A stretch of DNA of 64,000 nucleotides, taken from positions 3,348,001 through 3,412,000 of the forward strand of contig NZ_JANADK010000001.1 in the NCBI RefSeq assembly GCF_024199795.1. The letters are read 5' to 3'. The DNA comes from Bradyrhizobium sp. CCGB01. Its GTDB lineage: Bacteria; Pseudomonadota; Alphaproteobacteria; Rhizobiales; Xanthobacteraceae. How positions within the stretch are numbered: position 1 is the first letter of the stretch; each line of letters begins with the position of its first letter. The notes below the pieces were generated by a model that saw nothing but the letters and a program-made list of their open reading frames with translations, was not told where the DNA came from and made no database searches. This document shows, piece after piece, positions 34,106 through 52,648 of the stretch. The position numbers were made by a program, and so were the translations under genes.

Positions 34106-34122
34106 TGGTATACATAATGCCA
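34106..34122 (-). promoter_or_regulatory. Putative oxalate-regulon operator, site 1 (CBS-panE-like-FAH)
   Basis: TGGTATACATAATGCCA on the plus strand matches the TGGYAT-N5-ATRCCA dyad. On the minus strand a TTGACG -35-like hexamer (34125-34130) ends two bases before the site, so the operator would lie in the spacer and over the -10 region of the promoter for the CBS gene. Confidence 0.65.
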
Positions 34123-34192
34123 ATCGTCAAGCGCTCGATTTGGCTGATCCGAAAATTCTTGCGGCAGGAATGCTGACGTTTGTCGTCGAGCC

Positions 34193-34225
34193 AAAAAGAA
34201 AGGGGCGCATCGCTGCGCCCCTTTC
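34193..34225 (-). terminator. Rho-independent terminator of the first oxlT-like gene
   Basis: GAAAGGGGCGCA and TGCGCCCCTTTC (34198-34225) pair exactly around a 4-base loop. Read on the minus strand, the stem is followed by TTTTT (34197-34193). It starts 24 bp after the stop codon of the gene at 34250. Confidence 0.85.
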
Positions 34226-34249
34226 TCAACCGTCCAAGGTGTGCGGCTG

Positions 34250-35572
34250 TTACGCCGTCTCGGTCTTGGCATTGCCGGTCGCGGTGCCCGCGCTCTCGGC
34301 TTCCTTGCCGAGGATGAAGGAGCGGCGCAGCGGCTTGATCACGAACAGCGCCGTCAGCGCCGCCGTCGCATTCAACGCCACCGCGACCACGAACACGGCC
34401 TTCCAGCCGTAGGTTGCCGAGATCACGCTCGCGAGCGGGACGAGCAGGGATGCCGTGCCCTTCGCGGTGTAGAGCATGCCGTTGTTGGTGGTTGCGAATT
34501 TCGAGCCGAAGGTGTCGCCGCAGGTCGCGGGGAACAGCGAATAGATCTCGCCGAACACGCCAAAATACACCGCGGTCGCGAGCACGAAGACGACAGGGAC
34601 ATGGCCGTAGGCCGACAGCGTCAGGAGCATCAGCGCAGCGGTGCCGAACGCGATGAACATGGTGTGCTCGCGGCCGATCGTGTCGGAGACCCAGCCGAAG
34701 AACGGGCGTCCGAAGCCGTCGAAGATTCGGTCGAGCGAGATCGCGAAGGTCAGCGCCGCCATCTGGAAGCCGGCGAGCGTCACCGGCGTGTCGGCGATCT
34801 TGTAGTCGTGCGCGATCGGGCCGATCTGCGCCGCGGTCATCAGGCCGCCGGAGGCGACCATGACAAATACGAGATACATGACCCAGAAAATGGGGGTGCG
34901 CAGCACCTGCGGCGGGGTGAAGTCGATCTTGGTCTGCGGCAGATTGAGCTGCTTCTTCTTCGGCGGGATCGAGATCCGCGGCGGCTGGATGAAGAAGGCG
35001 AGCACGAACACGATCACGCCCTGGCCGATGCCGAAGGTGAGGAAGGCGTGCTGGTAGCCGCTCGTTGCGATCATGGTCGCGATCGGCACGATGGTGAGCG
35101 CAGCGCCGGCGCCGAAGCCGGCAGCGGTCGCGCCGGCGGCGAGGCCGCGGCGGTCGGGGAACCATTTCAGCGCGTTGCCGACGCAGGTGCCGTACACCGC
35201 GCCGGCGCCCATGCCGCCGACGACGGCGGCTGCGTAGAGCAGGGTGAGCGAGTCAGCGTAGGAGTTGAGCACCCAGGACAGCGCGATCATGACGCCGCCG
35301 AACATGATGACGATGCGCGGACCGTATTTGTCGACGAACCAGGCCTCGATCGGAACCAGCCAGGTCTCGGTGACGACGAAGATGGTGAAGGCGAGCTGGA
35401 TCGCGGCGCGACCCCAATGGTGCTCGTGATCGATCGGATCGACGAACAGCGTCCAGCCGTATTGCAGATTGGCAATCATCGCCATGCAGACGATGCCCAT
35501 GACCAGCTGAAGCCAACGGAAACCTGTGCGAAGAGGCGCGGCTGTGACGGCGCCATCCGGGCTGGAAATCAT
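34250..35572 (-). CDS. oxlT: Oxalate:formate antiporter-like MFS transporter, copy 1
   Basis: A 440-aa MFS protein with about 12 membrane helices. It begins at the ATG at 35572 (MISSPDGAVTA); upstream codons in frame do not look coding. It shares a full-length pattern with the transporter at 35835-37124, for example MIANLQYGWTLFV against MIANYQYGWTFFV, and ETWLVPIEAWFVDKYGPRI against ETWLVPVEGWFVDKYGPRI. The OxlT family exchanges oxalate and formate. Oxalate transport is inferred from family and from the oxc/frc genes in the window. It has its own terminator and an upstream operator copy, so it is probably monocistronic. Confidence 0.82.
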   Translation of the reverse strand: MISSPDGAVTAAPLRTGFRWLQLVMGIVCMAMIANLQYGWTLFVDPIDHEHHWGRAAIQLAFTIFVVTETWLVPIEAWFVDKYGPRIVIMFGGVMIALSWVLNSYADSLTLLYAAAVVGGMGAGAVYGTCVGNALKWFPDRRGLAAGATAAGFGAGAALTIVPIATMIATSGYQHAFLTFGIGQGVIVFVLAFFIQPPRISIPPKKKQLNLPQTKIDFTPPQVLRTPIFWVMYLVFVMVASGGLMTAAQIGPIAHDYKIADTPVTLAGFQMAALTFAISLDRIFDGFGRPFFGWVSDTIGREHTMFIAFGTAALMLLTLSAYGHVPVVFVLATAVYFGVFGEIYSLFPATCGDTFGSKFATTNNGMLYTAKGTASLLVPLASVISATYGWKAVFVVAVALNATAALTALFVIKPLRRSFILGKEAESAGTATGNAKTETA

Positions 35573-35673
35573 CAAGAACCTCCCAACGCGCCTGATTGAT
35601 TGCGACCTGGGATTGCAAGATGACCCGATGTCGCAAATGTTGTGGCTTATCGTCGCAAGCGCGGCGAGGACAT

Positions 35674-35690
35674 TGGTATACCATATCCCA
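35674..35690 (-). promoter_or_regulatory. Putative oxalate-regulon operator, site 2 (first oxlT)
   Basis: TGGTATACCATATCCCA has one mismatch to TGGYAT-N5-ATRCCA and includes the 10-bp palindrome TGGTATACCA. On the minus strand TTGCCT (35693-35698) precedes it by two bases. It lies 101 bp upstream of the gene start at 35572. Confidence 0.6.
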
Positions 35691-35771
35691 GAAGGCAAGC
35701 CCTATCTCGCGCCGCGGCGCAGCAAAATGCATGGTTCCGTTCGGATTACCGGAATCTGAAGAAATTCGTGC

Positions 35772-35804
35772 AAAACGAAAACGCCCGGCCGTGAGGCCGG
35801 GCGT
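35772..35804 (-). terminator. Rho-independent terminator of the second oxlT-like gene
   Basis: ACGCCCGGCC (35781-35790) and GGCCGGGCGT (35795-35804) form a strong stem with loop GTGA. On the minus strand it is followed by the T-rich TTTCGTTTTG. It lies 30 bp after the stop codon at 35835. Confidence 0.85.
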
Positions 35805-35834
35805 CGTTGCTTGAACGTTGTGTGGTGAAGCGCG

Positions 35835-37124
35835 TCAGAGCGTCGATTTTGCGACCACGACCTTGCGCCAGGGCTTGAGCACCATGATCGCCAGCAGGGA
35901 GGCCAGGATGTTAGCGCCGGCCGCGATGATGAACACGCTGTCCCAGGTGCCCGACGACTGCTGCATGTAGTTGGCGATCGGCACCAGCAGCGCGGCGGTG
36001 CCCTTCGCGGTGTAGAGCAGGCCGGCATTGGTGGTCGCGAACTTGGCGCCGAACGTGTCGGTGCAGGTCGAGGGGAACAGCGAGTAGATCTCACCCCAGG
36101 CGAAGAACACGAAGCCCGAGAGCAGCACGAACCAGAGAGGATCGTGGCCCCAGAGGTAGAGCATCCAGATGCCGAACCCTTCCATGCCGAAGGCGATGAA
36201 CATCGTGTTCTCGCGGCCGATCATGTCGGAGATCCAGCCGAAGAACGGACGCGTCAGGCCGTTGAGCACGCGGTCGATCGTCGCTGCGAACGTCACCGCG
36301 GTCATCGTCACCGCCATCAGCGTGACCGGCACGTTGTCGACCTTCCAGTCGGCCGCGATCGGCTTCAGGTTGGCCGTCACCATCAGGCCGCCGGCGCCGA
36401 CGATCACGAACATGAAGTACATCAGCCAGAAGATCGGCTGACGCAGAACTTCGGTCGGCTGATAGTTGCGGCGGCTCTGCACCAGGTTGGCGTTCGCCAC
36501 GACGTTCGGCACCTGGCCTGCTTTCGGCGCCAGCAGGAAGAAGGCGAGGATGCAGATGATGATGCCTTGTCCGAGGCCGAAATAGAGGAAGGTGGTCTGG
36601 AAACCACTGTCCTTGATCATGGCCTGGATCGGCGCGACGGTCAGCGCGGAGCCTGCACCGAAGCCCGCGGCCGTGATGCCCGCGGCAAGACCGCGCTTGT
36701 CCGGAAACCACTTCAGCGCATTGCCGACGCAGGTGCCGTAGACGCCGCCGGCGCCGATGCCTGCGATGATCATGCCGAGATAGAAGCCGTTGAGCGAGGT
36801 CGCCTGCGCATTGATCGCCCAGCCGACAGCGCAGAGCACGCCGCCGACGAGCACGACGATGCGCGGACCGTATTTGTCGACGAACCATCCTTCGACCGGC
36901 ACGAGCCAGGTCTCGAACAGCACGAAGAGCGTAAAGGCCCACTGGATCGAGGCGCGATCCCAGCCGAACTTTTTCTGGATGTCGGGGACGAAGAACGTCC
37001 AGCCGTATTGATAATTGGCGATCATCACCATTGCGGCGACGCCCACCGCCAACTGCGTCCAGCGATAGGCATCACTTACGCGCGCGACACCTGGGGCCGC
37101 TGTCGACTGCACCATGTCCGTCAT
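35835..37124 (-). CDS. oxlT: Oxalate:formate antiporter-like MFS transporter, copy 2
   Basis: A 429-aa MFS protein with about 12 membrane helices. The ATG at 37124 (MTDMVQSTAAPG) follows a GGGAGGGA ribosome-binding site, so a 65-codon upstream extension of the open frame is rejected. Motifs include GRPFFGW-type loops (TRPFFGWISDMIGRENTM) and YGTCVGNALKWFPDKRGLAAG, as in the oxalate/formate antiporter family. It is clearly a paralogue of the gene at 34250-35572, probably from tandem duplication. An operator copy lies 53 bp upstream, and its own terminator follows. Confidence 0.85.
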   Translation of the reverse strand: MTDMVQSTAAPGVARVSDAYRWTQLAVGVAAMVMIANYQYGWTFFVPDIQKKFGWDRASIQWAFTLFVLFETWLVPVEGWFVDKYGPRIVVLVGGVLCAVGWAINAQATSLNGFYLGMIIAGIGAGGVYGTCVGNALKWFPDKRGLAAGITAAGFGAGSALTVAPIQAMIKDSGFQTTFLYFGLGQGIIICILAFFLLAPKAGQVPNVVANANLVQSRRNYQPTEVLRQPIFWLMYFMFVIVGAGGLMVTANLKPIAADWKVDNVPVTLMAVTMTAVTFAATIDRVLNGLTRPFFGWISDMIGRENTMFIAFGMEGFGIWMLYLWGHDPLWFVLLSGFVFFAWGEIYSLFPSTCTDTFGAKFATTNAGLLYTAKGTAALLVPIANYMQQSSGTWDSVFIIAAGANILASLLAIMVLKPWRKVVVAKSTL

Positions 37125-37177
37125 CAAATCCCTCCCGAAGGCGCCGATCATTTTTATGCGTGCGCTGTCCCGCATCT

Positions 37178-37194
37178 TGGTATTCATTATGCCA
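37178..37194 (-). promoter_or_regulatory. Putative oxalate-regulon operator, site 3 (second oxlT)
   Basis: TGGTATTCATTATGCCA matches TGGYAT-N5-ATRCCA exactly. On the minus strand TTGAAT (37197-37202) precedes it by two bases. It lies 53 bp upstream of the ATG at 37124. Confidence 0.65.
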
Positions 37195-37202
37195 AGATTC
37201 AA

Positions 37203-37549
37203 CAGAGGGACTGGAGGGTGCGGCGAAATATCGCGGACCTGTTCACATGCGTCACGGCCGCGGAATTGTAAAGCCCCAATCGCTGCCAGCCCGATCATGG
37301 GAACAGCGGTCGCTGGCACTCAACGCATTGATGTCACGTCAATCTTCGGCCCCGCGCGAGGCCGCAAGCAAGCTCTGGAAAACCGGCGGCTCAGGGATTT
37401 TCAGCGTCCGACCAGTCGGTGCGCGCAGCGCGCGCAGATCGACGCGCGGTCGTGCGGCGACCGCGCATTTCCTGGAATTCTTTATTCCAGAAGTCCGGGG
37501 TGCGGCGGATTTGACGCGACTCTCGCGGCAGCCTGACGCAGGCCGCGCC
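37203..37549. other. Intergenic stretch without a recognised feature
   Basis: About 350 bp between the control region of the second oxlT-like gene and the tctA stop codon. I see no convincing ORF, RNA gene, repeat or terminator for the tctCBA operon here. Base composition is a little less GC-rich in its first half than in the flanking genes. Confidence 0.5.
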
Positions 37550-39049
37550 TCACGCCATCGACGTGCGCAGGCGGGTGTAGCCTTCCTGGATCGCGGACCA
37601 GAACAGGGCGACGAGACCGAGTGCCATGATCGTGCTGACGAGGCCGTTGGAGAAGAACACGCCGAGCGATCCTTGCGATCCCAGCAGCGATTGACGGAAG
37701 GCTTCCTCCGCCTTGTCGCCGAGCACGATGGCGAGCACCAGCGGCGCGAGCGGGTAGTTGCACTTCTTCAGGAGATAGCCGAGCACGCCGAACACCAGCA
37801 TCAGCATCACGTCGAAGGTGCTGTTGTGCACCGAATAGGCGCCGATCGCGCAGAGCACCAGGATGAGCGGCGCGATGATGCCGAAGGGCACGCGGAGGAT
37901 CGCGGCGAAGATCGGCACGCAGGTCAGCACGACGATGAGGCCTGCGAGATTGCCGAGATACATCGACGCGATCAGGCCCCAGACGAACTCCTTCTGCTCG
38001 ACGAACAGCATGGGACCGGGCTGCAGGCCCCAGATCAACAACCCGCCGAGCAGCACGGCGGCCGTCGGCGAACCGGGCACGCCGAGCGACAGCATCGGCA
38101 GCAGCGCCGAGGTGCCCGCGGCATGTGCGGCCGTCTCCGGCGCGATCACGCCCTCGATCTCGCCCTTGCCGAAATTGTTGCCGCGTCGCGCCAGCCGTTT
38201 GGCGATGCCATAGCTCATGAAGGATGCGGGCGTAGCACCAGCGGGCGTGACGCCCATCCAGCATCCGATCAGGCAGGAGCGCAGCGAGGTCATCCAGTAG
38301 GCGGGCAGCTCCCGCCAGGTTTGCAGCACGACGCGAAGGTTGATGGTCGCGTTGCCGCCGCGGAAAGCCAGTCCTTCCTCCATGGTCAGCAGGATCTCGC
38401 CGATCCCGAACAGGCCGATCACGGCGATCAGGAAGTCGAAGCCGTTGAGCAGCTCCGTGGCGCCGAAGGTCAGGCGCAATTGTCCCGTGATCGAATCCAG
38501 TCCGACCGCCGCGAGCGCAAAGCCCATCATCATCGCCGCGATGGTCTTGAACGGCGGCTCCTTGCTGAGGCCGACGAAGCTGCAGAAGGCGAGGAAGTAC
38601 ACCGCGAACTTCTCCGCCGGGCCAAATCGCAACGCGAAGCCCGCGACCAGCGGAGCGACCAGCGTGATCATGATGACGGCGAACAGCGCGCCGACGAAGG
38701 AGGAGGTGAACGCGGCCGTCAGGGCTTCGCCGGGCTTGCCCTGCTGCGCCATCGGATAGCCGTCGAAGGTCGTCGCCACCGACCATGGCTCGCCGGGTAT
38801 GTTGAACAGGATCGAGGTGATGGCGCCGCCGAACAAGGCGCCCCAATAGATGCAGGACAGCATGATGATGGCCGATGTCGGCGGCATGCTGAAGGTCAGG
38901 GGAAGCAGGATCGCCACGCCGTTGGCGCCACCTAACCCCGGAAGCACGCCGATGATGACGCCGAGCGTGATGCCGATGATCATCAGCAGGATGTTGTAGG
39001 GCTGCAGCGCGACCGCGAAGCCGTGAAACAGATTGGCCAACTCTTCCAT
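37550..39049 (-). CDS. tctA: Tripartite tricarboxylate transporter, large membrane subunit TctA (copy 1)
   Basis: The 499-aa polytopic membrane protein has the TctA signature GVLPGLGGANGVAILLPLTF near the N-terminus and the second conserved block FGKGEIEGVIAPETAAHAAG with LPMLSLGVPGSPTAAVL. It forms the ion-coupled translocation channel of the TTT system. It is the last gene of tctC-tctB-tctA, 43 bp after tctB. An operator copy far upstream suggests co-regulation with the oxalate genes, so a small di- or tricarboxylate is the probable substrate. Confidence 0.92.
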   Translation of the reverse strand: MEELANLFHGFAVALQPYNILLMIIGITLGVIIGVLPGLGGANGVAILLPLTFSMPPTSAIIMLSCIYWGALFGGAITSILFNIPGEPWSVATTFDGYPMAQQGKPGEALTAAFTSSFVGALFAVIMITLVAPLVAGFALRFGPAEKFAVYFLAFCSFVGLSKEPPFKTIAAMMMGFALAAVGLDSITGQLRLTFGATELLNGFDFLIAVIGLFGIGEILLTMEEGLAFRGGNATINLRVVLQTWRELPAYWMTSLRSCLIGCWMGVTPAGATPASFMSYGIAKRLARRGNNFGKGEIEGVIAPETAAHAAGTSALLPMLSLGVPGSPTAAVLLGGLLIWGLQPGPMLFVEQKEFVWGLIASMYLGNLAGLIVVLTCVPIFAAILRVPFGIIAPLILVLCAIGAYSVHNSTFDVMLMLVFGVLGYLLKKCNYPLAPLVLAIVLGDKAEEAFRQSLLGSQGSLGVFFSNGLVSTIMALGLVALFWSAIQEGYTRLRTSMA

Positions 39050-39092
39050 ATCGATACGTCCTGCAGCAATAATTGAATGAAGGCGCGGGATA

Positions 39093-39590
39093 TTACAGGC
39101 CGAGCCATTCCTCGAGCGGACCCTTGGGAAGCGGGACCAGGAACCAGCGTTCGAAAACCAGATAGGTCACCACCGGCATGCCGACCGCCACTGCGATGAC
39201 CGTCAGCCAGCGATAGCCGCCGAGCCAGCGCATGAACCAGGCGATGAACAGCATCGAAGCGACGTAGAGGCCGATGAACGGCATCGAGCCGACATAGATC
39301 GCGGTGGGCACGACGACGCTCATGACCTGGCGGAGCTGTCCCCATTCCGCGAACAGCCGGCCGTCGTCGTCGCGCCGCGCGCTCCAGAGGTTGATGGCGC
39401 TTGCGCCGACGATGGCGACGCCGACATAGAACGGGAAGAAGCCCGCACGCGGACCCTCCGCGCCCCAGTTGATGCCGGCCTTCAGGCTGCCGAAGATCAC
39501 GACCAGGCCGAAGACGCCGATCAGCAGCGCCATGCCGATCTCCAGCGTCTTGTGTGCCGGGCCAGATTCGGATCCGGATTGTTCAGTCAT
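39093..39590 (-). CDS. tctB: Tripartite tricarboxylate transporter, small membrane subunit TctB (copy 1)
   Basis: The 165-aa protein has four predicted membrane helices (about residues 17-37, 50-68, 88-120 and 123-145), typical of the poorly conserved TctB subunit. Identity is supported mainly by size, topology, the GPRAGFFPFYVG motif and its place between tctC and tctA. The 87-bp gap to tctC and the 43-bp gap to tctA are compatible with one transcript. Confidence 0.88.
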   Translation of the reverse strand: MTEQSGSESGPAHKTLEIGMALLIGVFGLVVIFGSLKAGINWGAEGPRAGFFPFYVGVAIVGASAINLWSARRDDDGRLFAEWGQLRQVMSVVVPTAIYVGSMPFIGLYVASMLFIAWFMRWLGGYRWLTVIAVAVGMPVVTYLVFERWFLVPLPKGPLEEWLGL

Positions 39591-39677
39591 GGGACCTCCA
39601 GGCAGAATCGCAGTCTTTCGCGGTCACGGCAGACCGGAGGACGACCAGCGTCCTCGGGCCGTCATCGATGTCGCGGA

Positions 39678-40682
39678 TCAGTTTCCGGACGCGAGGAAAC
39701 CGGCGTCCTTCATCAAGCCCTCGTGGCGCTTCTCCTCCGCCTCGATCCACTTGGCGTAGTCGGCTCCGGCCAGGAAGGTCGTGTTGAAGGCGCCGCTCTT
39801 CATGAAGTCCTGCCATTCCGGCGTGGCTCGAACTTTCTTGAACAGCTCGACGTAATATTCGATCTGATCCTTTGTCGCCTTGGGCGACATGAAGATACCG
39901 CGCAGCATGAGATATTCCATCGCGAGGCCCTGCGACTTGCAGGTCGGAATATCCTTCCAGGCCTTGCCGTCGGCGATCGGCTCGTCATAGGCCATCGGCT
40001 GGGCGTCGAAGACGCAGAGCGGACGCAGCTTGCCGCCGCGCCATTGCGCAACCGCCTCGATCGGATTGTTGACGGTGGAATCGACATGGTTGCCGACGAG
40101 CTGGACCGCGACTTCGCCGCCGCCCTTGTAGGGGATGTAGGTGAACTTCGCTTCGATCGCCTTCTCGATGCCGACCGTGATGATCTGGTCTTCCTGCTTC
40201 GAGCCGGTGCCGCCCATCTTGAAGGTGCCGCTCGGCGCCTTCTTGGTGGCGTCGACGTAGTCCTTGACGCTGTTGTACGGCTTCTCCGCGTTGACCCACA
40301 GCACGAACTCGTCGAGCGCCAGCATCGCGACCGGGGTCAGGTCCTTCCAGTTGAAGGGAATGCCCGTCGCGAGCGGGGTCGTGAACAGGTTCGACAGCGT
40401 GATGATGATCTTGTGCGGGTTGTTCGTCGACGTCTTCACGTCGAGGAAGCCTTCGCCGCCTGCGCCGCCGGCCTTGTTGATGACGACCAGCGGCTGCTTC
40501 ATCAAATTGTGCTTGGTGACGATGCCCTGGATGGTGCGCGCCATCTGATCGGCGCCGCCGCCGGTGCCCGCGGGCACGATGAACTCGACCGGACGAACCG
40601 GCTCCCAGGCCGCAAGGCTTGCGGTGCTGCCGGCGCACGACATCGCGATTGCCGCCAAAGCGGCATGAACGAACGGCTTCAT
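39678..40682 (-). CDS. tctC: Tripartite tricarboxylate transporter, periplasmic binding protein TctC (copy 1)
   Basis: The 334-aa Bug/TctC solute-binding protein has a signal peptide (MKPFVHAALAAIAMSCAGST) and the family's N-terminal VEFIVPAGTGGGADQMAR motif and VVINKAGGAGGEGF segment. It captures a carboxylate in the periplasm for TctAB. First gene of the tctCBA operon. The nearest putative promoter/operator is 276 bp upstream, which would leave an unusually long leader of about 260 bases. No small ORF with a good ribosome-binding site was found in it. Confidence 0.92.
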   Translation of the reverse strand: MKPFVHAALAAIAMSCAGSTASLAAWEPVRPVEFIVPAGTGGGADQMARTIQGIVTKHNLMKQPLVVINKAGGAGGEGFLDVKTSTNNPHKIIITLSNLFTTPLATGIPFNWKDLTPVAMLALDEFVLWVNAEKPYNSVKDYVDATKKAPSGTFKMGGTGSKQEDQIITVGIEKAIEAKFTYIPYKGGGEVAVQLVGNHVDSTVNNPIEAVAQWRGGKLRPLCVFDAQPMAYDEPIADGKAWKDIPTCKSQGLAMEYLMLRGIFMSPKATKDQIEYYVELFKKVRATPEWQDFMKSGAFNTTFLAGADYAKWIEAEEKRHEGLMKDAGFLASGN

Positions 40683-40957
40683 CTTTTCTCTCCCTGTCGA
40701 ACCTCGAACGCAGCCGCTCTTTGCCGGCTTGCGTCAGCCCATCTCGATTCACATGCTTGGGGTCACCTTTTGTGGTCGATCTCCCATTGCAGCCCAAACG
40801 AAACTCTATGAGCAGGGAAAGGCCGCGGCATCCGCTTCTTTCGGCTAAGGCTCCGTCAAGGTTTGCGGCAAGCGTGCCTCGCCCTTGGCCGGTTCCGTCC
40901 TGCGTTACGCATCCCCGCCTTGCACCTTCGGTTGTGCAAGTGATCTTGGTTGCCGAA

Positions 40958-40974
40958 TGGTATGCGAGATACCA
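40958..40974 (-). promoter_or_regulatory. Putative oxalate-regulon operator, site 4 (tctCBA)
   Basis: TGGTATGCGAGATACCA has perfect 6-5-6 dyad symmetry and matches TGGYAT-N5-ATRCCA. On the minus strand TTGTCT (40977-40982) precedes it by two bases, as at the other sites. The rest of the 470-bp gap between tctC and the 45-aa gene shows only the terminator at 41059-41084. Confidence 0.6.
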
Positions 40975-41058
40975 GCAGACAAACAATTGGATCAGCGGGG
41001 CACGCCTGCGGACCAATCGTCGCAGTTGTGTCGCGCGCGATGCGAGGCCTGGAGACGA

Positions 41059-41084
41059 AAATGGCCCCGACATGCGGGGCCATT
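41059..41084 (-). terminator. Rho-independent terminator of the 45-aa gene
   Basis: AAATGGCCCC and GGGGCCATTT form a perfect 10-bp stem with a 6-7 base loop. On the minus strand it continues TTTCGTC. It lies about 70 bp after the stop codon of the small gene at 41153. Confidence 0.7.
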
Positions 41085-41152
41085 TGATCAAACGTAGCGT
41101 CTACGGAATTTCCCAACCGGCGCGCCGTTTCGGCTGCGCGGGGAAAACCTGC

Positions 41153-41290
41153 TTAGAGGCCGAAGCGGGGCAGGTCGCCGTTGTGATTGGAGATCTCGGC
41201 GCTCGCCATCAGGAAGCGGTCGACCGCGGCCATGAAGCGGGCGAACAGCGAGGAGGAGGGGGCCAGAGCAACCGCAGCGGTCTTGGACAT
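41153..41290 (-). CDS. 45-aa protein of unknown function in the putative oxalate regulon
   Basis: Too short for most gene callers. The ATG at 41290 (MSKTAAVALAPSSSLFARF) follows a GAAAGGGA ribosome-binding site. The product has one amphipathic helix (about residues 14-33, SLFARFMAAVDRFLMASAEI) and ends HNGDLPRFGL, with a TAA stop. No known domain is seen. Three signals support it as a real transcription unit. A promoter (TAGACA, 17 bp, TAGATT) lies just upstream with the regulon operator in its spacer. There is a good ribosome-binding site. A terminator follows about 70 bp downstream. It is probably monocistronic. Confidence 0.7.
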   Translation of the reverse strand: MSKTAAVALAPSSSLFARFMAAVDRFLMASAEISNHNGDLPRFGL

Positions 41291-41346
41291 CGGAATTCCC
41301 TTTCTTGAGACGGTCAGTATTGCTGTCTCATTTCGAAGGGCAATCT

Positions 41347-41363
41347 ATGTATACCAGATGCCA
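41347..41363 (-). promoter_or_regulatory. Promoter with operator site 5, in front of the 45-aa gene
   Basis: ATGTATACCAGATGCCA keeps the right half-site ATGCCA and the TATACCA core but loses the first TG. On the minus strand a -35 TAGACA (41365-41370) and -10 TAGATT (41342-41347) are exactly 17 bp apart with the operator between them, an arrangement suited to repression. Confidence 0.65.
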
Positions 41364-41582
41364 CTGTCTATGCGCTTGTTTGCATAGCAGCATGCAGCCT
41401 CTCGCATTGCAGCATAATGATGCGTTAACAGGGCCGTTCCGGGCTGAAAATTGCAAAAACGGCTGCGGAAGCGGCCCATTGAGGCGAATTTGAAGGGATT
41501 CGCACGGCACCCGGGCCTTGGCAGGGCAGGTCAAAGCCGGTAGTGGTCTGCCCCCTTTTCCAATCAACTGTCAGAGTGGTTC

Positions 41583-42911: not shown

Positions 42912-42933
42912 GCCCTTTGCGCGATTTGAGCGC

Positions 42934-43074: not shown

Positions 43075-43102
43075 CAGAAACTGCGCACCAGGTCGTCCAC
43101 TC

Positions 43103-43546: not shown

Positions 43547-43674
43547 GATTGTTATCCTCTTTGATGTGATGGGCCCGAGTTTGGCGTCTATGGCCCATTC
43601 ATGTCACGAGGACGACCGGGAAGCTGCCGATCCGACAGGGCACTCGAATTTTTTTCCTGGCTCTGGCCAAGAGA

Positions 43675-44364: not shown

Positions 44365-44702
44365 ACTGACCTCGATCTCTCTTTTCCCGAAGCGGCGTTG
44401 GACATGCTACCACCGCGCCCCGGGGCGGCGCGTGATCTATTGTGCACAGAAGCTCTTCCCTGCCGAGAAAAAACAGCCTGGCGCGGCGCTCAGGTGACTC
44501 GCATTTGGGCGGCGTCGTGATGAATCGGCATGCAGCAGATCCGTCGTGTTCGCCAAAAATCACAAGCAACAGAACCCGGTTCACACATCGAAACACAAGA
44601 GCCGGATTTTGGCCGCCATGCTCCCGGATTAGTCGGCAACTGGCTGCGTCTGACGACACGACGCACGCGCCTGATATCGATGACACGAGGCGGATTGACG
44701 AC
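44365..44702. other. Intergenic stretch without a recognised feature
   Basis: About 340 bp between two divergent genes. The open frame of the dioxygenase-like gene runs back through part of it, but the codons there look non-coding. No repeat, terminator or regulatory dyad was recognised. Confidence 0.5.
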
Positions 44703-45674
44703 ATGAAGCAGAAGACCGTGCGCTACCGGCTCGCGCGCCGTGTTCGCAGCCTGCCCGCAGAGACTGCTTCGAGACTGCTTGGAATGCCGAGCATCAGCCG
44801 ACGACTGAACGAAGCTTACGAAACGGCGCGGGCATCCTACAGGCCGCGCCTGCCCAAGCTCCCCGCGCTCGACATGGAAATTGTCGCCGGCCTGGAGAAG
44901 AACGGCGTCCATATCACCTCGCTCGACAAGCTGGGCTTGCCCGGCACGGAAGCGCTTTGGACATCGGCGACCGAAATCGCGAACACCTACGCGCTCCGCG
45001 CCGGGAAGGGCGAATTTGCTGGTGAATATACCGTGCGGGTCGGTGCCGACGCGATGATGCGGCATCCGCATATCGTCGGATGGCCCCTCCAGGATCGCAT
45101 CCTCGACATCGTCGAGACGTATCTCGGCCTGCCATCCGCCTATGGCACGCTGAACTTCCTCTATACCCAGGCTGACGGCAGGCAGGTGGCGGCGCGCCGG
45201 TGGCATCGCGACCTCGAGGACCGGCGCATGGTCAAGGTCGTCGTCTATCTGCACGATGTCGACATGGACGCCGGCCCGCTCGAAATCCTGCACCGCTCGT
45301 TTCCGGGCAGCGATGCGCTCGACGGCTCCAACTTTCCCATTCTGACGCAGGAGATGCTGGAGCAGAGGCTCGGCACGACGTTGAAGAGCGGTGACGTGAC
45401 CACCTGCACCGGCAAAGCCGGTACGGTGATCTTCGCGGATGTCGCGAGTCGTTACCATCGCGGGCGGCCGGCGATCGCGCGCGACCGCTGCGCGCTGTTC
45501 TACAATTTCTTCTCGCGCGCGCCTCTCCGGCCATTTTTCTGCGAGCGGCACGTGTTCTCACGTCAGCAAATTCTCGAGCTTGCGGCGAACCAATCGGCGC
45601 GGGCACGCGACTGCATGCTATGGCGCTCCAACGTCCCCCTGCTTGCGCGGGTCGTGCCATCGGCGCGGCTTTGA
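44703..45674 (+). CDS. Putative Fe(II)/2-oxoglutarate dioxygenase (phytanoyl-CoA hydroxylase-like)
   Basis: The 323-aa protein starts at the ATG at 44703 (MKQKTVRYRL). The iron-binding facial triad is suggested by RRWHRDLED (H and D) and by the distal SRYHRGRPAIARDR (H, with an Arg that could bind 2-oxoglutarate). The core double-stranded beta-helix sequence MVKVVVYLHDVDMDAGPLEI is like PhyH-type enzymes that recognise a CoA ester or small-molecule substrate. The N-terminal about 90 residues are basic and helical. The substrate is unknown. Confidence 0.75.
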   Translation: MKQKTVRYRLARRVRSLPAETASRLLGMPSISRRLNEAYETARASYRPRLPKLPALDMEIVAGLEKNGVHITSLDKLGLPGTEALWTSATEIANTYALRAGKGEFAGEYTVRVGADAMMRHPHIVGWPLQDRILDIVETYLGLPSAYGTLNFLYTQADGRQVAARRWHRDLEDRRMVKVVVYLHDVDMDAGPLEILHRSFPGSDALDGSNFPILTQEMLEQRLGTTLKSGDVTTCTGKAGTVIFADVASRYHRGRPAIARDRCALFYNFFSRAPLRPFFCERHVFSRQQILELAANQSARARDCMLWRSNVPLLARVVPSARL

Positions 45675-45787
45675 GCCCGATCGGTCAGGGCGCCAATCAT
45701 CCCGCCAAATCCCCGCTCGATTAATTGAAGCCACAATTCCGCTATCGTTCGTGGCTCAACTCCTGCGCGAAATCAGGGGGGCTTCCG

Positions 45788-46756
45788 TTGCGCAGCACGC
45801 TTTGGGCTTTTGCCGTCACACTCTGCTGTCTCGGCTCGTCCGCCGAAGCCGCGGGCATTCAGCTCCTCGAGTCCGATCCGGCGCTGTCAGGCGCGATCTG
45901 GTATCCGTGCGCGGCGAAGCCGACGCATGTGGCGCTCGGCAGGCTTTCGGCTGGGGTCGATTTCGACCTGAAGGGCGTGAAGGATTGTCCCGTCACGGGA
46001 GCAAAGCTGCCGCTCGTCGTCTTCTCCCACGGCCGGGGCGGGTGGTTCGGCGCGAACCACGACACAGCGGAGGAGCTGGCCGATGCGGGTTTCGTGGTGG
46101 CCGCCATCAATCATCCCGGCGACTCCGTCAGCGACTCCTCGCGGCGCGACACCCTGTCCGTCTGGGGATCGCGTCCCGCGGACATGGTGCGCCTGCTCGA
46201 TTTTCTATTGAACGACTGGAAGGACAGGGCGGTGCTCGATCCCGCCAGGGTCGGCTTCTTCGGCTTCTCGCTGGGAGGGGCTACCGGCTTCGTGCTCATG
46301 GGCACCAGGCCGGATTTCGCGAGGATCGCCGGTTTCTGCAAGGAGACGACCGGCGCTTGCGCAGAGCTTCACAATGGCGAGACGCCGCCTGAGCCGATCC
46401 AGGATGCGCGTATCCGCACTGCCGTCATCGTCGATCCTGCGCCCGGCACCCTGACGCGCGAGAACCTCGCCGTGGTCAAGGTGCCGTTCCAGTTCTGGCG
46501 CTCGCAGTTCGGCGGCCCCGGCGTCGGCGACGGTTCGGGTACGGAGCGCGTCGCGGAGGGATTGCCGGGCAAGCCCGAGATCCATGTCGTGCCGGCCGGC
46601 CATTTCGCCTTCCTCGCACCTTGCTCGGCCGAGCTTGCGGCGGCGATCCCTCGCATCTGCATCGATACGCCGGTGGGGTTCGACAGGGTAGGCTTTCACC
46701 GCGAGTTTAACGCGGCGGTGGTGCAGTATTTTCGTGAGCAGCTTGGAGGCCATTGA
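45788..46756 (+). CDS. Secreted alpha/beta hydrolase (dienelactone hydrolase / PAF-acetylhydrolase-like)
   Basis: I chose the TTG at 45788, seven bases after a GGGGGG ribosome-binding site, because it yields a clean signal peptide (MRSTLWAFAVTLCCLG...). The frame is open further upstream to a TTG at 45725. The mature part has the oxyanion segment VVFSHGRGGWFGANH, the nucleophile elbow GFSLGG (Ser) and a late histidine in PAGHFAFLAPC. The fold matches predicted dienelactone hydrolases with a catalytic Ser-Asp-His triad. The substrate is unknown. It is monocistronic. Confidence 0.8.
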   Translation: MRSTLWAFAVTLCCLGSSAEAAGIQLLESDPALSGAIWYPCAAKPTHVALGRLSAGVDFDLKGVKDCPVTGAKLPLVVFSHGRGGWFGANHDTAEELADAGFVVAAINHPGDSVSDSSRRDTLSVWGSRPADMVRLLDFLLNDWKDRAVLDPARVGFFGFSLGGATGFVLMGTRPDFARIAGFCKETTGACAELHNGETPPEPIQDARIRTAVIVDPAPGTLTRENLAVVKVPFQFWRSQFGGPGVGDGSGTERVAEGLPGKPEIHVVPAGHFAFLAPCSAELAAAIPRICIDTPVGFDRVGFHREFNAAVVQYFREQLGGH

Positions 46757-46917
46757 GTGTCTGCTGACACTGTCGGTCTCTTCTCCACGCCAAAATCAAA
46801 TCGCCACACTCTGGTCCGATTCCGCTGACAGTTCGATTGCGCTTTGAAATCGGCCCTGCGGCTGGCGCAACGCTTGCGATAGAGCGATGGTCCCGCCGCA
46901 TTGTCAGGAGAATTGTG

Positions 46918-47922
46918 ATGCTCGGCGCGAAAGAAGGGGAGACCAAGCAAGCTCCCCCGCAAGAACGATCCCGGAGGACTCAAGAGGGGACTCAAAGCTG
47001 GACCAGCCAGGATGCCTGGACCGTCTACCAGCTTCCCTTCAACGATCTGCTGTTTCGATCACAATCCGTCCATCGCAAGAATTTTGACCCAAATCGCGTG
47101 CAGTTGAGCCGGCTGCTGAACATCAAGACCGGCGGTTGTCCAGAGGACTGTGGCTATTGCAGCCAGTCGTCGCATCACGCGACAGCTGTTGCGGCCTCCA
47201 AGCTGATGGACGTCGATAAGATCGTTGCCGAGGCGCGCAAGGCAAAGGAGAGTGGCGCGACGCGCTATTGCATGGGGGCTGCCTGGCGTAACCCGAAGCC
47301 GCGCGACATGGACGCCGTCGTCGAGGTTGTCGGTGCCGTGAAGCAGCTCGGGCTCGAGACCTGCATGACGCTTGGCATGCTCGATCGGGGGCAGGCCGAG
47401 CGGCTGAGCGCGGCCGGGCTCGATTACTACAATCACAATATCGATACCTCGGAGCGCTACTATCCGAGCGTCATCTCCACCCGGACGTTCGCCGATCGTC
47501 TCGACACGCTGGAGCATGTCCGCGAGGCCGGCATGAAAGTATGCTGCGGCGGCATCCTCGGCATGGGTGAGAGCGAACAGGATCGCGTCGACATGCTGGT
47601 CACGCTCGCCAACCTTCCGGAAGCGCCGGAGAGCGTACCGATCAACATGCTGATCCCGATCGAGGGAACGCCGATGGCGAAAGCGCCGCCGATCGGTCCG
47701 ATCGAGTTCGTGCGCATCGTCGCGCTCGCGCGCATCATGATGCCGGCCTCTTTCGTGCGACTCTCGGCAGGACGGTCGGCCATGACCGACGAGATGCAGG
47801 CGCTGTGCTTCCTTGCCGGCGCAAACTCGATCTTTGTCGGCGACACACTGTTGACGGCGGGCAATCCGCAGGACGAAGCCGATCGAAAGTTGTTCCGCCG
47901 GCTCGGTCTGCAAGCCCTCTGA
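46918..47922 (+). CDS. bioB: Biotin synthase
   Basis: Radical-SAM enzyme that inserts sulfur into dethiobiotin. The 334-aa protein has the cluster motif [13 protein letters not shown] with three cysteines for the [4Fe-4S] cluster, the [2Fe-2S] ligand region (RYCMGAAWR and the ETCMTLGML segment) and the conserved [13 protein letters not shown]. The ATG at 46918 follows an AGGAGA sequence. The rest of the biotin genes (bioFDA) are not adjacent. No BioR box (TTATCTATAA) was seen upstream. The hairpin at 47923-47969 probably ends its transcript. Confidence 0.96.
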
Positions 47923-47969
47923 AGCATGATCGATTCGGAAGGCCGCTGAGCGGCTTTCCGGATCATGCT
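47923..47969. terminator. Strong hairpin after bioB
   Basis: AGCATGATC and GATCATGCT form outer arms around GGAAGGCCGC / GCGGCTTTCC with a TGA loop. There is no poly-T tail, so it may be an interspersed repeat or transcript-end stabiliser instead of a simple terminator. Confidence 0.5.
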
Positions 47970-47988
47970 CTGGGCCGTGCGTCGATTG

Positions 47989-48171
47989 CTATTCGGTGCG
48001 TTCTCTCGCCTTGGCCTCGCGGGCCAATCGTTCCGCCTTCAGGCGCTCGCGGTTTTCGTGGAAGGAGTGCTGGTCCTTCGCGTAGTCATTCATCGGCTTC
48101 TGCGTCTTGACAGGCTTGAACGCCTTGTTGGCTTCACGCTTGGCTCGATCAGAGGAATGATCTCTCAACAT
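47989..48171 (-). CDS. Small charged protein of unknown function (60 aa)
   Basis: The ATG at 48171 is ten bases behind GGAG; an ATG at 48183 lacks a ribosome-binding site. The product is very rich in Lys, Arg and Glu (SDRAKREANKAFKPVKTQK; HENRERLKAERLAREAKAR), probably helical and soluble. No known domain. It is convergent with bioB across the hairpin. About 400 bp upstream (48172-48570) hold nothing I recognise. Confidence 0.6.
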   Translation of the reverse strand: MLRDHSSDRAKREANKAFKPVKTQKPMNDYAKDQHSFHENRERLKAERLAREAKARERTE

Positions 48172-48570
48172 TTCGATCTCCATTTGATCAACGAGCGTGG
48201 TCCCGACAAGCGCCGGACGCGATGTCTCCCGCGCACAGGCTGATACGGATCGACGCCCTCTGGACGGGAAGGCGGCCAATTCTACGGCGTTGGGCGGGTC
48301 TCTTGCGAGGCGCTCAGTCACTCGCTGGGGAGGCGGCATGCTCGCTTCTGAAAGCACACCGGTCAAGGACATAACGAACAGCCGCCACATCTGTTCCGCG
48401 GGACCAGTCATATATTTCTCGACGATGGCATAATACCCCTGTTTTGCCCGACGCGTCAAAGGCAGTTCGAAAAAATCGAAATGTCTTTGCTGCCAATGAG
48501 TTGGCTACTGTGCATGGGGTTGTTTTTCAATTTTTAGTTTGAGCCTGCCCGCCCAACGGCATTCACATGC

Positions 48571-48601
48571 AAAAAAGGGCCGCCTCGAAGGGCGGCCCTT
48601 T
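48571..48601 (-). terminator. Rho-independent terminator of the gntR-oxc-frc operon
   Basis: AAAGGGCCGCC and GGCGGCCCTTT pair exactly with a 6-base loop. On the minus strand the stem is followed by TTTTTT. It lies 22 bp after the frc stop. Confidence 0.85.
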
Positions 48602-48623
48602 CGTCATTCTCTGATAGGTCCGC

Positions 48624-49901
48624 TTATTCGGCGGCCTGCTTCTGCGGCGGGTCGAGCGCGCCGGACTTGTGGATGTCGGCGACCTGGTGATCGCTGAAGC
48701 CGAGCACGCTGCGCAGGATCTCGTCGGTGTGCTCGCCGAGCAGCGGGGAGCGCTCCACCTCGCTCGGGGAGTCCGACAGCTTGATCGGATTGCCGACCGA
48801 GATGTACTTGCCGCGGGTGGGGTGGTCGACCTCGACCACGGTGCCGGTCGCGCGCAGCGACTGGTCCTCGGCGATCTCCTTCATCGACAGGATCGGGCCG
48901 CAGGGGATGTCGTCCTTGTTGAGGATTTCCATCGCCTCGAACTTCGTCTTGGTCATCGTCCACTGCTCGATGCGGGCGAAGATCTCGTTGAGGCGCGGCA
49001 GGCGGACGGCCGGCTTGGAATAGTTCGGATCGGTCTTCCAGGTGGGCTCGCCGATCACGTCGCAGATCTTCTCCCAGACCGGGGCCTGGGTGATGAAGTA
49101 GATGTAGGCGTTGGGATCGGTCTCCCAGCCCTTGCACTTCAGGATGCGGCCGGGCTGGCCACCGCCGGAATCGTTGCCGGCTCGCGGCACGGCGTCGCCG
49201 AACGGAATGCCTTCGCCGAACTGGCTGTATTCCTTGAGCGGGCCGTGGGCGAGGCGCTGCTGGTCGCGCAGCTTGACGCGGGCGAGGTTGAGCACGCCGT
49301 CCTGCATCGCGGCGGTGACCTTCTGGCCCTTGCCCGAATGCGTGCGCTGATAGAGCGCGGTGACGATGCCGAGCGCGAGGTGCAGGCCGGTGCCGCTGTC
49401 GCCGATCTGCGCGCCGGTGACGAGCGGCAGGCCGTCGCGGAAGCCGGTGGTCGAGGCGGCGCCGCCGGTGCACTGTGCGACGTTCTCATAGACCTTGCAG
49501 TCTTCGTACGGTCCGGGGCCGAAGCCCTTGATCGAGGCGACGATCATCTTCGGGTTGATCGCCTGGATCTTCTCCCAGGGGAAGCCCATGCGGTCGAGCA
49601 CGCCGGGGCCGAAATTCTCGACCAGCACGTCGCACTTCTTGATCAGCTCGGTGAGCACTTCCTTGCCCTTGGGGTTCTTGGTGTCGAGCGTGATCGAGCG
49701 CTTGTTGTGGTTGAGCATGGTGAAATACAGGCTGTCCACGTTCGGGATGTCCTGCAGCTGGCCGCGGGTGATGTCACCCACGCCCGGGCGTTCCACCTTG
49801 ATCACGTCGGCGCCGAACCACGCCAGCAGCTGCGTGCAGGTCGGGCCGGACTGGACGTGGGTGAAGTCGAGAATGCGAACGCCCTCGAGCGCTTTGGTCA
49901 T
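48624..49901 (-). CDS. frc: Formyl-CoA:oxalate CoA-transferase
   Basis: Transfers CoA from formyl-CoA to oxalate, making oxalyl-CoA and formate. The 425-aa class III CoA-transferase has the N-terminal [20 protein letters not shown], the catalytic aspartate at residue 168 in [12 protein letters not shown], and a glycine-rich loop, SGGGQPGR, that closes over the active site in the Oxalobacter enzyme. It follows oxc by 65 bp on the same strand and ends the gntR-oxc-frc unit. The start ATG is preceded by GGAGCAA. With oxc it forms the classical oxalate cycle in which formyl-CoA is regenerated. Confidence 0.95.
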
Positions 49902-49966
49902 TGTGTTGCTCCGTACTCTGTGTCTGCCCCCGCCAACCGCAGGGATTAAAGGGTTGAGGGGTGGAC

Positions 49967-51700
49967 TTACTTCTTCTTCTGCAGAACGCTCTGCGGATTG
50001 AGGTTGCCGATGCGGCCGCTCTCAGAGCCCGCGGCCGGATCGATCACCGCATTGATGAGCGTCGGCTTGCCCGAGGTCATCGCCTCGTTGACGGCGCGCT
50101 TGAGCTCGTCGGGCGAGGTGGCATTCACGCCGACGCCGCCGAAGGCTTCCATCATCTTGTCGTAGCGCGCGCCCTTGACGAACACCGTCGTCGCCGGATC
50201 GGCGTTGACGCTGTTGACGTCGGTGCCGCGATAGATGCCGTCATTGTTGAAGATGACGACGCAGATCGGCAGGTTGTAGCGGCAGATGGTCTCGACTTCC
50301 ATGCCGGAGAAGCCGAAGGCCGAGTCGCCTTCCACCGCGAGCACGGGGTGACCGGTCTCGAGCGCCGCCGCGATCGCCTGGCCCATGCCGATGCCCATCA
50401 CGCCCCAGGTGCCGACGTCGAGACGCTTGCGCGGCCGGTACATGTCGATGACGCCGCGGGCGAGGTCGAGCGTGTTGGCGCCCTCGTTGACGAGGATCGC
50501 CTCGGGATGATCCTTGATCACGTTCTTCAGCACGCCGAGCGCGCCGTGATAGTCCATCGGCGACTTGTTGTTCATGAGCTTCGGCGCCATCTTGGCGACG
50601 TTCTCTTCGCGCTTGGACGAGATCGCCTTGGTCCATTCGGCGGGCGGGGCGGTCCAGCCCGAAGCCATCGCCTGATTGAAGGCCGAGACGACCGAGCCGA
50701 TGTCGCCGACGACGGGCGCGACGATCTCGACGTTGGAGTCCATTTCCCTCGGCTCGATGTCGACCTGGATGAACTTCTTGGGCGTCTCGCCCCAGCTCTT
50801 GCCCTTGCCGTGCGAGAGCAGCCAGTTCAGCCGCGCGCCGATCAGCAGCACGACGTCGGAGTCCTTGAGTACGGTCGAGCGGGCCGCACCGGCGCACTGC
50901 GGATGGGTGTCGGGGAGCAGGCCCTTGGCCATGCTCATCGGCAGGAAGGGAACGCCGCTCTTCTCGACGAAGCTCTTGATCTCCTCGTCAGCCTGCGCGT
51001 AGGCCGCGCCCTTGCCGAGGATGATGAGCGGGCGTTTTGCGCTCTTGAGCACGTCGAGCGCGCGCTTGATCGAAGCGGGCGAGGGGATCTGCGCGGGAGC
51101 TGCGTCGATCACCTTGACCAGCGACTTCTGGCCGGCATCGGCGTTCATCACCTGGCCGAACAGTTTTGCTGGCAGGTCGAGATAGACGCCGCCCGGACGG
51201 CCCGAGACCGCGGCGCGGATGGCGCGGGCAAGGCCGATGCCGATGTCCTGGGCGTGCAGCACGCGATAGGCCGCCTTGCACAGCGGCTTGGCGATCGCGA
51301 GCTGGTCCATCTCCTCATAGTCGCCCTGCTGGAGGTCGACGATCTCGCGCTCGGAGGAGCCCGAGATCAGGATCATCGGATAGCAATTGGTGGTGGCGTG
51401 CGCGAGCGCGGTGAGACCGTTGAGGAAACCCGGCGCGGAGACCGTGAGGCAGACGCCGGGCTTCTTGGTGAGGTAGCCGGCGATGCCTGCGGCGTAGCCG
51501 GCGTTCTGCTCGTGGCGGAAGGAGATCACGCGGATGCCTTCGGCCTGCGCCATGCGGCCCAAATCCGTGATCGGGATGCCCGGCACATTATAGATGGTGT
51601 TGATGCCGTTCAGCTTGAGCGCGTCGATGACGAGATGAAAACCATCCGTCAATTCCTGCTCGGTGCCCGGTGCTTCGGACTTGGTCGCGGTATTCAGCAT
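49967..51700 (-). CDS. oxc: Oxalyl-CoA decarboxylase
   Basis: Thiamine diphosphate enzyme that converts oxalyl-CoA to formyl-CoA and CO2. The 577-aa protein has the cofactor-activating Glu64 ([13 protein letters not shown]) and the thiamine-binding motif beginning [18 protein letters not shown], ending in a conserved NN. The central ADP/CoA-binding domain has [16 protein letters not shown]. These match Oxc of Oxalobacter and other oxalotrophs. The gene lies 62 bp after gntR and 65 bp before frc. Expression is probably controlled from the operator at 52551-52567, upstream of gntR. Confidence 0.96.
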
Positions 51701-51762
51701 GGGCCTTGTCTCCCTGGTCTCAAGTTAGTGGGGCGAGTGCTTCGCCCTTCTGGTGAACGTTG

Positions 51763-52494
51763 CTACGTGAAGAGTTCCTGGCCGTGCGCCTCGACGTAGG
51801 CGGCAAGGCCAAGGGTGTGGTCGCGGGTGCGCTTCTCGGCGAGCTCGGTGTCGCGCGATTCCAGCGCTTCGATCATGCCGAGATGCTCGGGCAGGGAGGT
51901 CGCGGTGCGATCCTTCCGTCCGATCGTCAGTTGCCGGTAGCCGCGCACGTGCAGCAGCAGGTCGTTGGTGAGATCGACCAGCACGGGCGATTCCGAGAGC
52001 GAGATCAGCGCCTGGTGAAAGGCGATGTTGGCGCGCGAATATTCCTCGACATGGTCCTCGGGCAGGCGGTCCTTGCCGAAGTCCTTGAAGAAGTCGCGCA
52101 GCGCCGAGATGTCCTTCTTGCGCGCGGTGGTGGTGATGAGGCGGGCCGCCATGCTCTCCAGCGCCGCCCAGGCGCGGATCATGTCGACGATCTCGCTCTT
52201 GGTTCTGCGCACCACCATGATGCCGCGGCGCGGAACCGTCTTCACGAAGCCGTCCTGCTCGAGCATCGCGATGGCTTCGCGGATCGGCGTGCGGCTCACG
52301 CCCAGCCGTTCGGACAACGCGCGCTCGTCGAGCATGACGGGCTCGGGCGTCGAATAGATGTCCATCTTGAGGATGGCTTCCTTCAAGGCGTCATACGCCT
52401 TGTTCTTGAAGCTGCTCTCCGGGGCAATACGAACGATTGCGATATCTGCCTCGGCCATATTCGGCAACGCCTTGGTTGGTTTCCGCAGTGACAC
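51763..52494 (-). CDS. GntR-family (FCD) regulator, candidate repressor of the oxalate regulon
   Basis: The start is the GTG at 52494, six bases behind a perfect GGAGGAG; the longer open frame upstream has no such site and runs into the operator. The 243-aa protein has an N-terminal winged helix (ERLGVSRTPIREAIAMLEQDG) and a C-terminal FCD ligand-binding domain with histidines suited to metal and carboxylate binding (ANIAFHQALISLSES, HVRGYRQL, EHLGMIEAL). It is first in the gntR-oxc-frc operon, and its own promoter carries one of the seven recurring dyads. I infer autoregulation and control of the whole set; the ligand might be oxalate, oxalyl-CoA or formate. Confidence 0.88.
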   Translation of the reverse strand: MSLRKPTKALPNMAEADIAIVRIAPESSFKNKAYDALKEAILKMDIYSTPEPVMLDERALSERLGVSRTPIREAIAMLEQDGFVKTVPRRGIMVVRRTKSEIVDMIRAWAALESMAARLITTTARKKDISALRDFFKDFGKDRLPEDHVEEYSRANIAFHQALISLSESPVLVDLTNDLLLHVRGYRQLTIGRKDRTATSLPEHLGMIEALESRDTELAEKRTRDHTLGLAAYVEAHGQELFT

Positions 52495-52550
52495 GACGAA
52501 TCTCCTCCAGTGGGAGTCGTCTTTTACAGGATTATTAACGGGAAAGTTTT

Positions 52551-52567
52551 TGGCATACCACATGCCA
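52551..52567 (-). promoter_or_regulatory. Putative oxalate-regulon operator, site 6 (gntR-oxc-frc)
   Basis: TGGCATACCACATGCCA has a 6-5-6 dyad. On the minus strand a canonical TTGACA (52571-52576) lies three bases upstream, so the site fills the spacer of the gntR promoter. It is 56 bp upstream of the GTG start. Confidence 0.7.
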
Positions 52568-52631
52568 GAATGTCAAGCTGGCTATTTTTTGCGGCGTTCT
52601 AAGGTACGCGGCGGCTTGACAAGTTGGCTTC

Positions 52632-52648
52632 TGGCATACCAAATGCCA
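52632..52648 (+). promoter_or_regulatory. Putative oxalate-regulon operator, site 7 (acyl-CoA synthetase)
   Basis: TGGCATACCAAATGCCA differs from site 6 at one central base. On the plus strand TTGACA (52616-52621) precedes it by ten bases, so the site would cover the -10 region of the promoter for the gene at 52807. The leader to that start is about 160 bp; nothing else was seen in the 312-bp divergent gap. Confidence 0.7.

Follow-up and report, generated by a model that had tools for sequence, protein, structure and literature searches.

A conserved 17-bp dyad as the probable operator of a GntR/FCD regulator at an oxalate locus of Bradyrhizobium sp. CCGB01

The oxalate locus and its dyads

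The stretch of DNA analysed here (the window; 64,000 nucleotides, C1:3348001-3412000) comes from the 9,317,328-base, single-contig genome of Bradyrhizobium sp. CCGB01 and harbours a group of oxalate genes with copies of a 17-bp dyad, TGGYAT-N5-ATRCCA, which is probably the operator of a GntR/FCD regulator encoded among them. The formyl-CoA transferase gene frc (48624..49901, -) and the oxalyl-CoA decarboxylase gene oxc (49967..51700, -) have products that score above the cut-offs of TIGR03253 and TIGR03254 respectively, and the oxalate/formate antiporters encoded by oxlT1 (34250..35572, -) and oxlT2 (35835..37124, -) score above that of TIGR04259; all three components of the Frc-Oxc-OxlT oxalate decarboxylation pathway are recognised at NCBIfam equivalog level, OxlT twice. 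The proposed cognate regulator is encoded by gntR (51763..52494, -), whose likely start is a GTG at 52494 preceded by GGAGGAG. The GntR protein has an N-terminal winged helix-turn-helix (PF00392, 46.8 bits against a cut-off of 27) and a C-terminal FCD domain (PF07729, 77.3 bits against 24.3). When it is aligned to 3sxy, an Asn stands opposite an Asp at one position and His opposite His at three; these may correspond to the metal/ligand-site residues of FCD proteins (Asp/Asn and three His).

A CBS-domain protein (33643..34071, -; Pfam CBS) is encoded together with a panE-like reductase (32522..33541, -; Pfam ApbA and ApbA_C), a candidate oxalyl-CoA reductase by its regulon context for which a single NCBIfam model, of a 2-dehydropantoate 2-reductase subfamily, matches at E<=1e-60, and with an FAH-family hydrolase (31737..32525, -; Pfam FAA_hydrolase). 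The tctCBA transporter genes (37550..40682, -) comprise tctA (37550-39049), tctB (39093-39590) and tctC (39678-40682), with Pfam TctA, TctB and TctC domains; a gene for a 45-aa protein lies at 41153..41290 (-). On the opposite strand, acs (52807..54936, +) encodes a nucleoside diphosphate (NDP)-forming acyl-CoA synthetase with ATP-grasp_5, Succ_CoA_lig and Ligase_CoA_2 domains (Pfam), for which no NCBIfam model reaches its cut-off, and is directly followed by the gene for an IclR-type regulator (55100-55954, +).

A pattern scan of the window found five exact dyads within an 18.5-kb stretch (34106, 37178, 40958, 52551 and 52632) and inexact copies at 35674 (one mismatch) and 41347 (two mismatches), bearing out the seven positions and mismatch counts of the original prediction. 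All seven are intergenic and upstream of the genes it had named; the intergenic status of the 52551 copy hinges on the GTG start, because the longest gntR reading frame runs into the site. The operators, given without strand, are placed as follows. Operator 1 (34106..34122) lies in the promoter of the CBS-panE-FAH genes; on the coding strand, TTGACG precedes it by 2 bp. Operator 2 (35674..35690), in the oxlT1 promoter, contains TGGTATACCA and has a one-mismatch equivalent at the same place in a related locus (L230). Operator 3 (37178..37194) lies in the oxlT2 promoter, and oxlT2 homologues in relatives (e.g. L209, L230, L272) have exact dyads 61-63 bp upstream. Operator 4 (40958..40974) is about 280 bp upstream of tctCBA, and relatives have dyads at a distance of 279-321 bp upstream of their tctC. 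Operator 5 (41347..41363) stands before the 45-aa gene as the variant TGGCATCTGGTATACAT on the - strand. The 45-aa protein has 27 homologues, 44-96% identical, encoded behind the same operator variant; in all 28 loci that hold the gene, including four with homologues only 44-64% identical, it is preceded by a copy within two mismatches (mostly TGGCATCTGGTATAC[A/G]T) that begins 70-89 bp upstream. The weak site at 41347 is a conserved variant. Operator 6 (52551..52567) belongs to the gntR-oxc-frc promoter and follows TTGACA by 3 bp. Operator 7 (52632..52648) lies in the acs promoter and is overlapped by a one-mismatch copy in another register (52625-52641).

Two further matches with two mismatches, at 20959 and 37473, fall outside the earlier claim. 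The latter is in itself a perfect dyad, TGGAAT-N5-ATTCCA (37473-37489), between oxlT2 and tctA; L230 has it too (at 6355), whereas L271-L273 lack it, and it resembles the operator variant found at distant gntR genes.

At up to two mismatches the window contains 10 matches, against a mean of 3.12 (standard deviation 1.75, maximum 8) in 100 dinucleotide shuffles. Genome-wide there are six exact dyads, five of them inside the window, where base composition predicts 0.7-0.9, and 45 dyads at up to one mismatch versus 19 for the reversed pattern. A refined word, TGGYATACCANATRCCA, gave five genome-wide matches at up to one mismatch (0.25-0.32 expected from the composition model) and 10 at up to two; as the model expects 6-8 of the latter, the case at that level rests on where the matches lie, and all 10 belong either to this locus or to the regions ahead of sucC and fdsB. 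At up to three mismatches the refined word showed no genome-wide excess over the reversed control (27+31 versus 28+32). The observation is confirmed.

Promoter geometry and conservation in relatives

A -35 box was defined as TTG with A or C in position 4 or C in position 5, or as five of six matches to TTGACA. Of 87 non-redundant promoters, drawn from the CBS, oxlT, oxc, frc, tct, gntR and 45-aa classes, 68 have such a box 1-4 bp ahead of the dyad, versus 2, 9 and 4 at control gaps of 8-11, 12-15 and 16-19 bp. In non-redundant CBS promoters the gap was 2 bp in 11/11, and in acs promoters it was 8-12 bp in 22/24. The earlier statement on the promoters holds: six of the seven window sites have a -35-like hexamer ending 1-3 bp ahead of the dyad. 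The exception is acs, where TTGACA stands 10 bp before the 52632 site and 3 bp before the 52625 register. The core TGGYATRCCA starts 8-10 bp after the -35 box at gntR, acs, oxlT1 and the 45-aa gene of the window (a near match at the last). A third half-site (RCCAN or NTGGY) accompanies 76 of 118 exact sites over all classes; it is frequent at gntR (34/35), acs (24/24) and fdsB (5/5) operators, present at 7/9 for oxc and 3/9 for sucC, and scarce at CBS (0/11), oxlT (1/15) and tct (0/7) operators.

Close relatives were represented by the best 80 of 233 loci. The gntR and acs copies are both exact in all 80 of these Bradyrhizobium-type loci, 73 of which carry two exact dyads and seven three. Over 81 aligned sequences, the acs site had a mean conservation of 1.0 and ranked first of 202 alignment windows (ties possible), and the gntR site had 0.977 versus 0.912 elsewhere and ranked only 70th; the footprint is therefore strong for the acs site and moderate for the gntR site. 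A locus with a GntR identity of 98% (L108) comes from a record named Frankia sp. RB7, which is probably misnamed or mixed since the locus is Bradyrhizobium-like.

The 11 relatives surveyed for targets, from seven genera, hold 66 exact dyads, of which 57 are <=400 bp upstream of homologues of regulon genes, counted as gntR, acs, oxlT, CBS, tctC, sucC or a sucC-like paralogue, fdsB, oxc and glyoxylate carboligase, the dyad list having been paired by hand with the rows of upstream genes. The remaining nine amount to 0.8 per genome, near the chance level. The sixth exact dyad of the CCGB01 genome (C1:169852) is in the mdh-sucC gap, upstream of sucC, and this site is exact in five relatives (G035, G330, G194, G143 and G332). 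A one-mismatch copy (C1:2189707) precedes, by about 150 bp, a gene whose product has Nuo51-type and 2Fe-2S domains, presumably fdsB of an NAD-linked formate dehydrogenase, and is exact in six (G035, G330, G194, G143, G289 and G305). Glyoxylate carboligase sits behind a dyad in two relatives. These findings support a regulon larger than first stated, which would also include sucC and fdsB and, in relatives, glyoxylate carboligase. A sucC-like gene of 75-83% identity lies beside acs or oxlT in L175, L176, L183, L184, L227, L237 and L242.

A gene for a 586-aa major facilitator superfamily protein lies beside the fdsB-like gene in L016 (2491-4251), a pairing kept in G035, G330, G194 and G143. In more distant families, single dyads upstream of genes for FolD (L235), the transhydrogenase alpha subunit (L238), FdhE (L239, L246) and other proteins are leads only.

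The GntR/FCD protein and alternative explanations

Matches to the GntR protein were found in 56/199 genomes of the order (E<=1e-40) and in 121/149 genomes of the family (E<=1e-60), many of them paralogue-like at about 50% identity. The ortholog-bearing sample comprised 44 of the 52 genomes whose match reached about E<=4e-83 (>=58% identity), covering six families and 15 genera, and the regulator-free sample 20 of the 28 family members without a GntR match. Exact dyads were present in 44/44 of the former, 214 in total versus eight for the reversed pattern; in the latter, 4/20 carry one dyad each. Six genomes of one genus with a GntR protein of 57-58% identity hold 20 dyads. As the genomes are related, test values for this co-occurrence are not independent probabilities. 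The dyad goes with the regulator and not with oxc, since 15 of the 44 dyad-bearing genomes have no Oxc match and, among 10 genomes with Oxc but a GntR protein of only 50-56% identity, five lack the dyad.

The original prediction also placed gntR behind its own copy of the dyad, and this proved general close to home: besides the 80 Bradyrhizobium-type loci, a copy within one mismatch lies <=250 bp upstream of gntR in 24/24 family loci (L148-L171). In 20 loci with a GntR protein of 48-56% identity, 19 of them beside oxc, a TGGYATNTGGYATRCCA variant within two mismatches lies upstream of gntR in nine; such variants at distant gntR genes include TGGAATATTGTATGCCA and TGGTGTATGGTATACCA.

Taken together, the promoter position of the sites, the conserved targets, the copies at gntR and the co-occurrence argue for a single regulon under the GntR/FCD protein, as originally proposed; that this protein is a repressor and oxalate its signal is what we infer. 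We hold it quite probable that the dyad is the operator through which the protein encoded at 51763-52494 controls an oxalate regulon as a repressor. A GntR/FCD dimer would bind TGGYAT-N5-ATRCCA between the -35 and -10 boxes (at acs further downstream, towards -10) and keep RNA polymerase off, until oxalate or an oxalate-derived product binds the FCD domain and the operator is released.

A number of results weigh against this view. Own-gene copies are mostly missing outside the family: among 13 loci with 58-64% identity (L172-L184, of which 11 belong to other families), only three have one within one mismatch upstream of gntR, the dyads of this group standing at other regulon genes, and in the loci at 48-56% identity two have the TGGYATNTGGYATRCCA variant at three mismatches and nine have none. 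Only 7 of 18 genomes with a best GntR match of 49-56% have any exact dyad, 13 dyads in total. The 44 genomes were chosen for carrying the regulator and are mutually related. A search for Oxc in the 20 genomes without a GntR match gave no match in any, so that this contrast alone cannot separate regulator from pathway. No fixed-distance -35 box was seen in the nine sucC and six fdsB promoters examined. The best NCBIfam match of the GntR protein is far below its cut-off, with no tested relative to anchor the ligand, and FCD proteins can also activate. Our confidence is slightly lowered by two of these points, the own-gene sites missing in distant loci and the absence of Oxc matches from the GntR-free genomes.

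Among the alternatives, the one that survives best is that GntR binds the dyad but acts as an activator or a dual regulator. E. coli GlcC, of the FadR subfamily, is described as an activator (PMC11323563). The dyad, however, fills the spacer between the -35 and -10 boxes, the classical position for a repressor, and we regard this alternative as unlikely.

A further alternative is that the operator belongs to another regulator, for which the IclR-type protein encoded beside acs (55100-55954) was the sole candidate examined. IclR operators are also TGG...CCA-like palindromes, which counts in its favour along with its place next to acs in the window. This protein was matched at E<=1e-60 in only 14 of the 64 genomes, all among the 44 dyad-bearing ones, so that 30 of the 44 have the dyad without it; the IclR neighbour was rejected on this ground as the regulator of the dyad, and another owner of the operator seems improbable.

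Another alternative is that the sites are sigma-54 (RpoN) promoters, a type marked by GG at -24 and GC at -12, as published for one copy. For Bradyrhizobium sp. DOA9, a table of RpoN sites restricted to genes that respond to loss of rpoN includes TGGCATACCACATGC, at -247 relative to an ATP-grasp gene (PMC13207237), and the DOA9 locus (L083) carries a full 17-bp dyad there, the predicted 15-mer being the first 15 bp of the complete dyad (9894-9910). Yet the match is two-fold symmetric and continues to CCA, the sites have sigma-70-type -35 boxes at a fixed distance, and the promoters named for electrophoretic mobility shift assays in the available part of that article do not include the ATP-grasp gene. 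The G at -12 is replaced by A in 61 of the 162 oriented, non-redundant sites (with gntR/acs sites entering once per direction) and in 11/11 CBS promoters, and a sigma-54 promoter was rejected on the former count; we consider it very improbable as an account of these sites, and suggest that the published DOA9 site is really this operator. Chance with shared promoter ancestry and no regulon is hardly credible and was rejected: the loci are related and nine of the relatives' 66 exact dyads resemble background, but the word is kept at scattered targets (sucC, fdsB) and amid diverged flanks, it co-occurs with gntR, it is in excess in the window and the genome, and 57 of the 66 are targeted.

The predicted pathway and comparison with known systems

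Under the preferred reading, with GntR/FCD as repressor, release of the operator would lead to production of the uptake systems OxlT and TctCBA; activation with CoA by Frc, the acs product and SucCD; decarboxylation by Oxc; reduction of oxalyl-CoA to glyoxylate by the PanE-like enzyme; and oxidation of formate by formate dehydrogenase, the PanE, acs and formate dehydrogenase reactions being predictions. Some genomes without an Oxc match carry other parts of this set behind a single dyad: gntR-frc-tctCBA-panE-FAH in G301 (L190), gntR-frc-panE-FAH in G317 (L284), gntR-frc-panE in G321 (L171) and at least gntR-frc in G242 and G224. The panE-like gene behind a dyad, glyoxylate carboligase with a dyad and gntR-frc without Oxc suggest that a reductive oxalate route, with predicted enzyme activities, is under the same GntR control.

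A more far-reaching version is rather doubtful, and we put it forward tentatively. The regulon might form a CoA-ester priming loop for oxalate, in which SucCD and the NDP-forming synthetase are driven together under the same regulator because the Frc/Oxc cycle loses CoA esters when oxalyl-CoA is reduced to glyoxylate; the synthetase might then be a new enzyme that forms oxalyl-CoA or formyl-CoA, the CBS and 45-aa proteins dedicated regulators of the pathway, and the route purely reductive in some relatives without an Oxc match.

In one genome without an Oxc match, the gene for a thiamine pyrophosphate enzyme about 25% like Oxc lies next to frc, with upstream dyads (L234, 1088-2707), and another such genome has a similar gene (L237, 4621-6327). 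The NCBIfam models that best match the L234 protein score it below their cut-offs; enzymes of this type are possible stand-in oxalyl-CoA decarboxylases. In G246, one of two gntR copies (L188) is accompanied by frc, panE and FAH, with oxc there only as short fragments and a full Oxc match elsewhere in the genome; in G194, Oxc matches come in two overlapping pieces (C1:2663428-2665156).

Oxalate is abundant in plants and soils, and a defined operator provides a sequence handle for finding the parts of its pathway. It would tie in genes whose role is unknown (the CBS protein, the 45-aa protein, the FAH hydrolase, TctCBA and the NDP-forming synthetase) and link the oxalate pathway to sucC and a formate-dehydrogenase-type gene; it is also a candidate part for an oxalate biosensor.

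The original paper on oxalate assimilation via PanE in Methylobacterium extorquens is reportedly that of Schneider in 2012. In M. extorquens AM1, PanE interconverts oxalyl-CoA and glyoxylate (PMC9485241), and the likeness to the present system is a PanE-type enzyme linking these two compounds; no regulator or operator was seen in the available part of that article. Bradyrhizobium diazoefficiens is able to metabolise oxalate and expresses Frc (Bll3156) and Oxc (Bll3157) in nodules (PMC4926349). The enzymes and the genus are the same, and no operator, regulator or link to sucC or formate dehydrogenase was seen in the available part of that source. Searches of open-licence PMC papers, covering listings and some passages, gave no description of a regulator or operator for the Frc/Oxc pathway. 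A close parallel in control is offered by GntR proteins of the FadR subfamily that govern acid catabolism; one of them, GlcR of Paracoccus denitrificans, is likewise encoded beside catabolic genes and is reported to be a repressor (PMC11323563). The present system differs from it in its substrate genes, in the wide dyad of 17 bp, to which a third half-site is often added, and in a regulon that adds sucC and a formate-dehydrogenase-type gene. Judged by sequence comparison, the operator and its regulon are real and conserved, and their control is of a familiar type.

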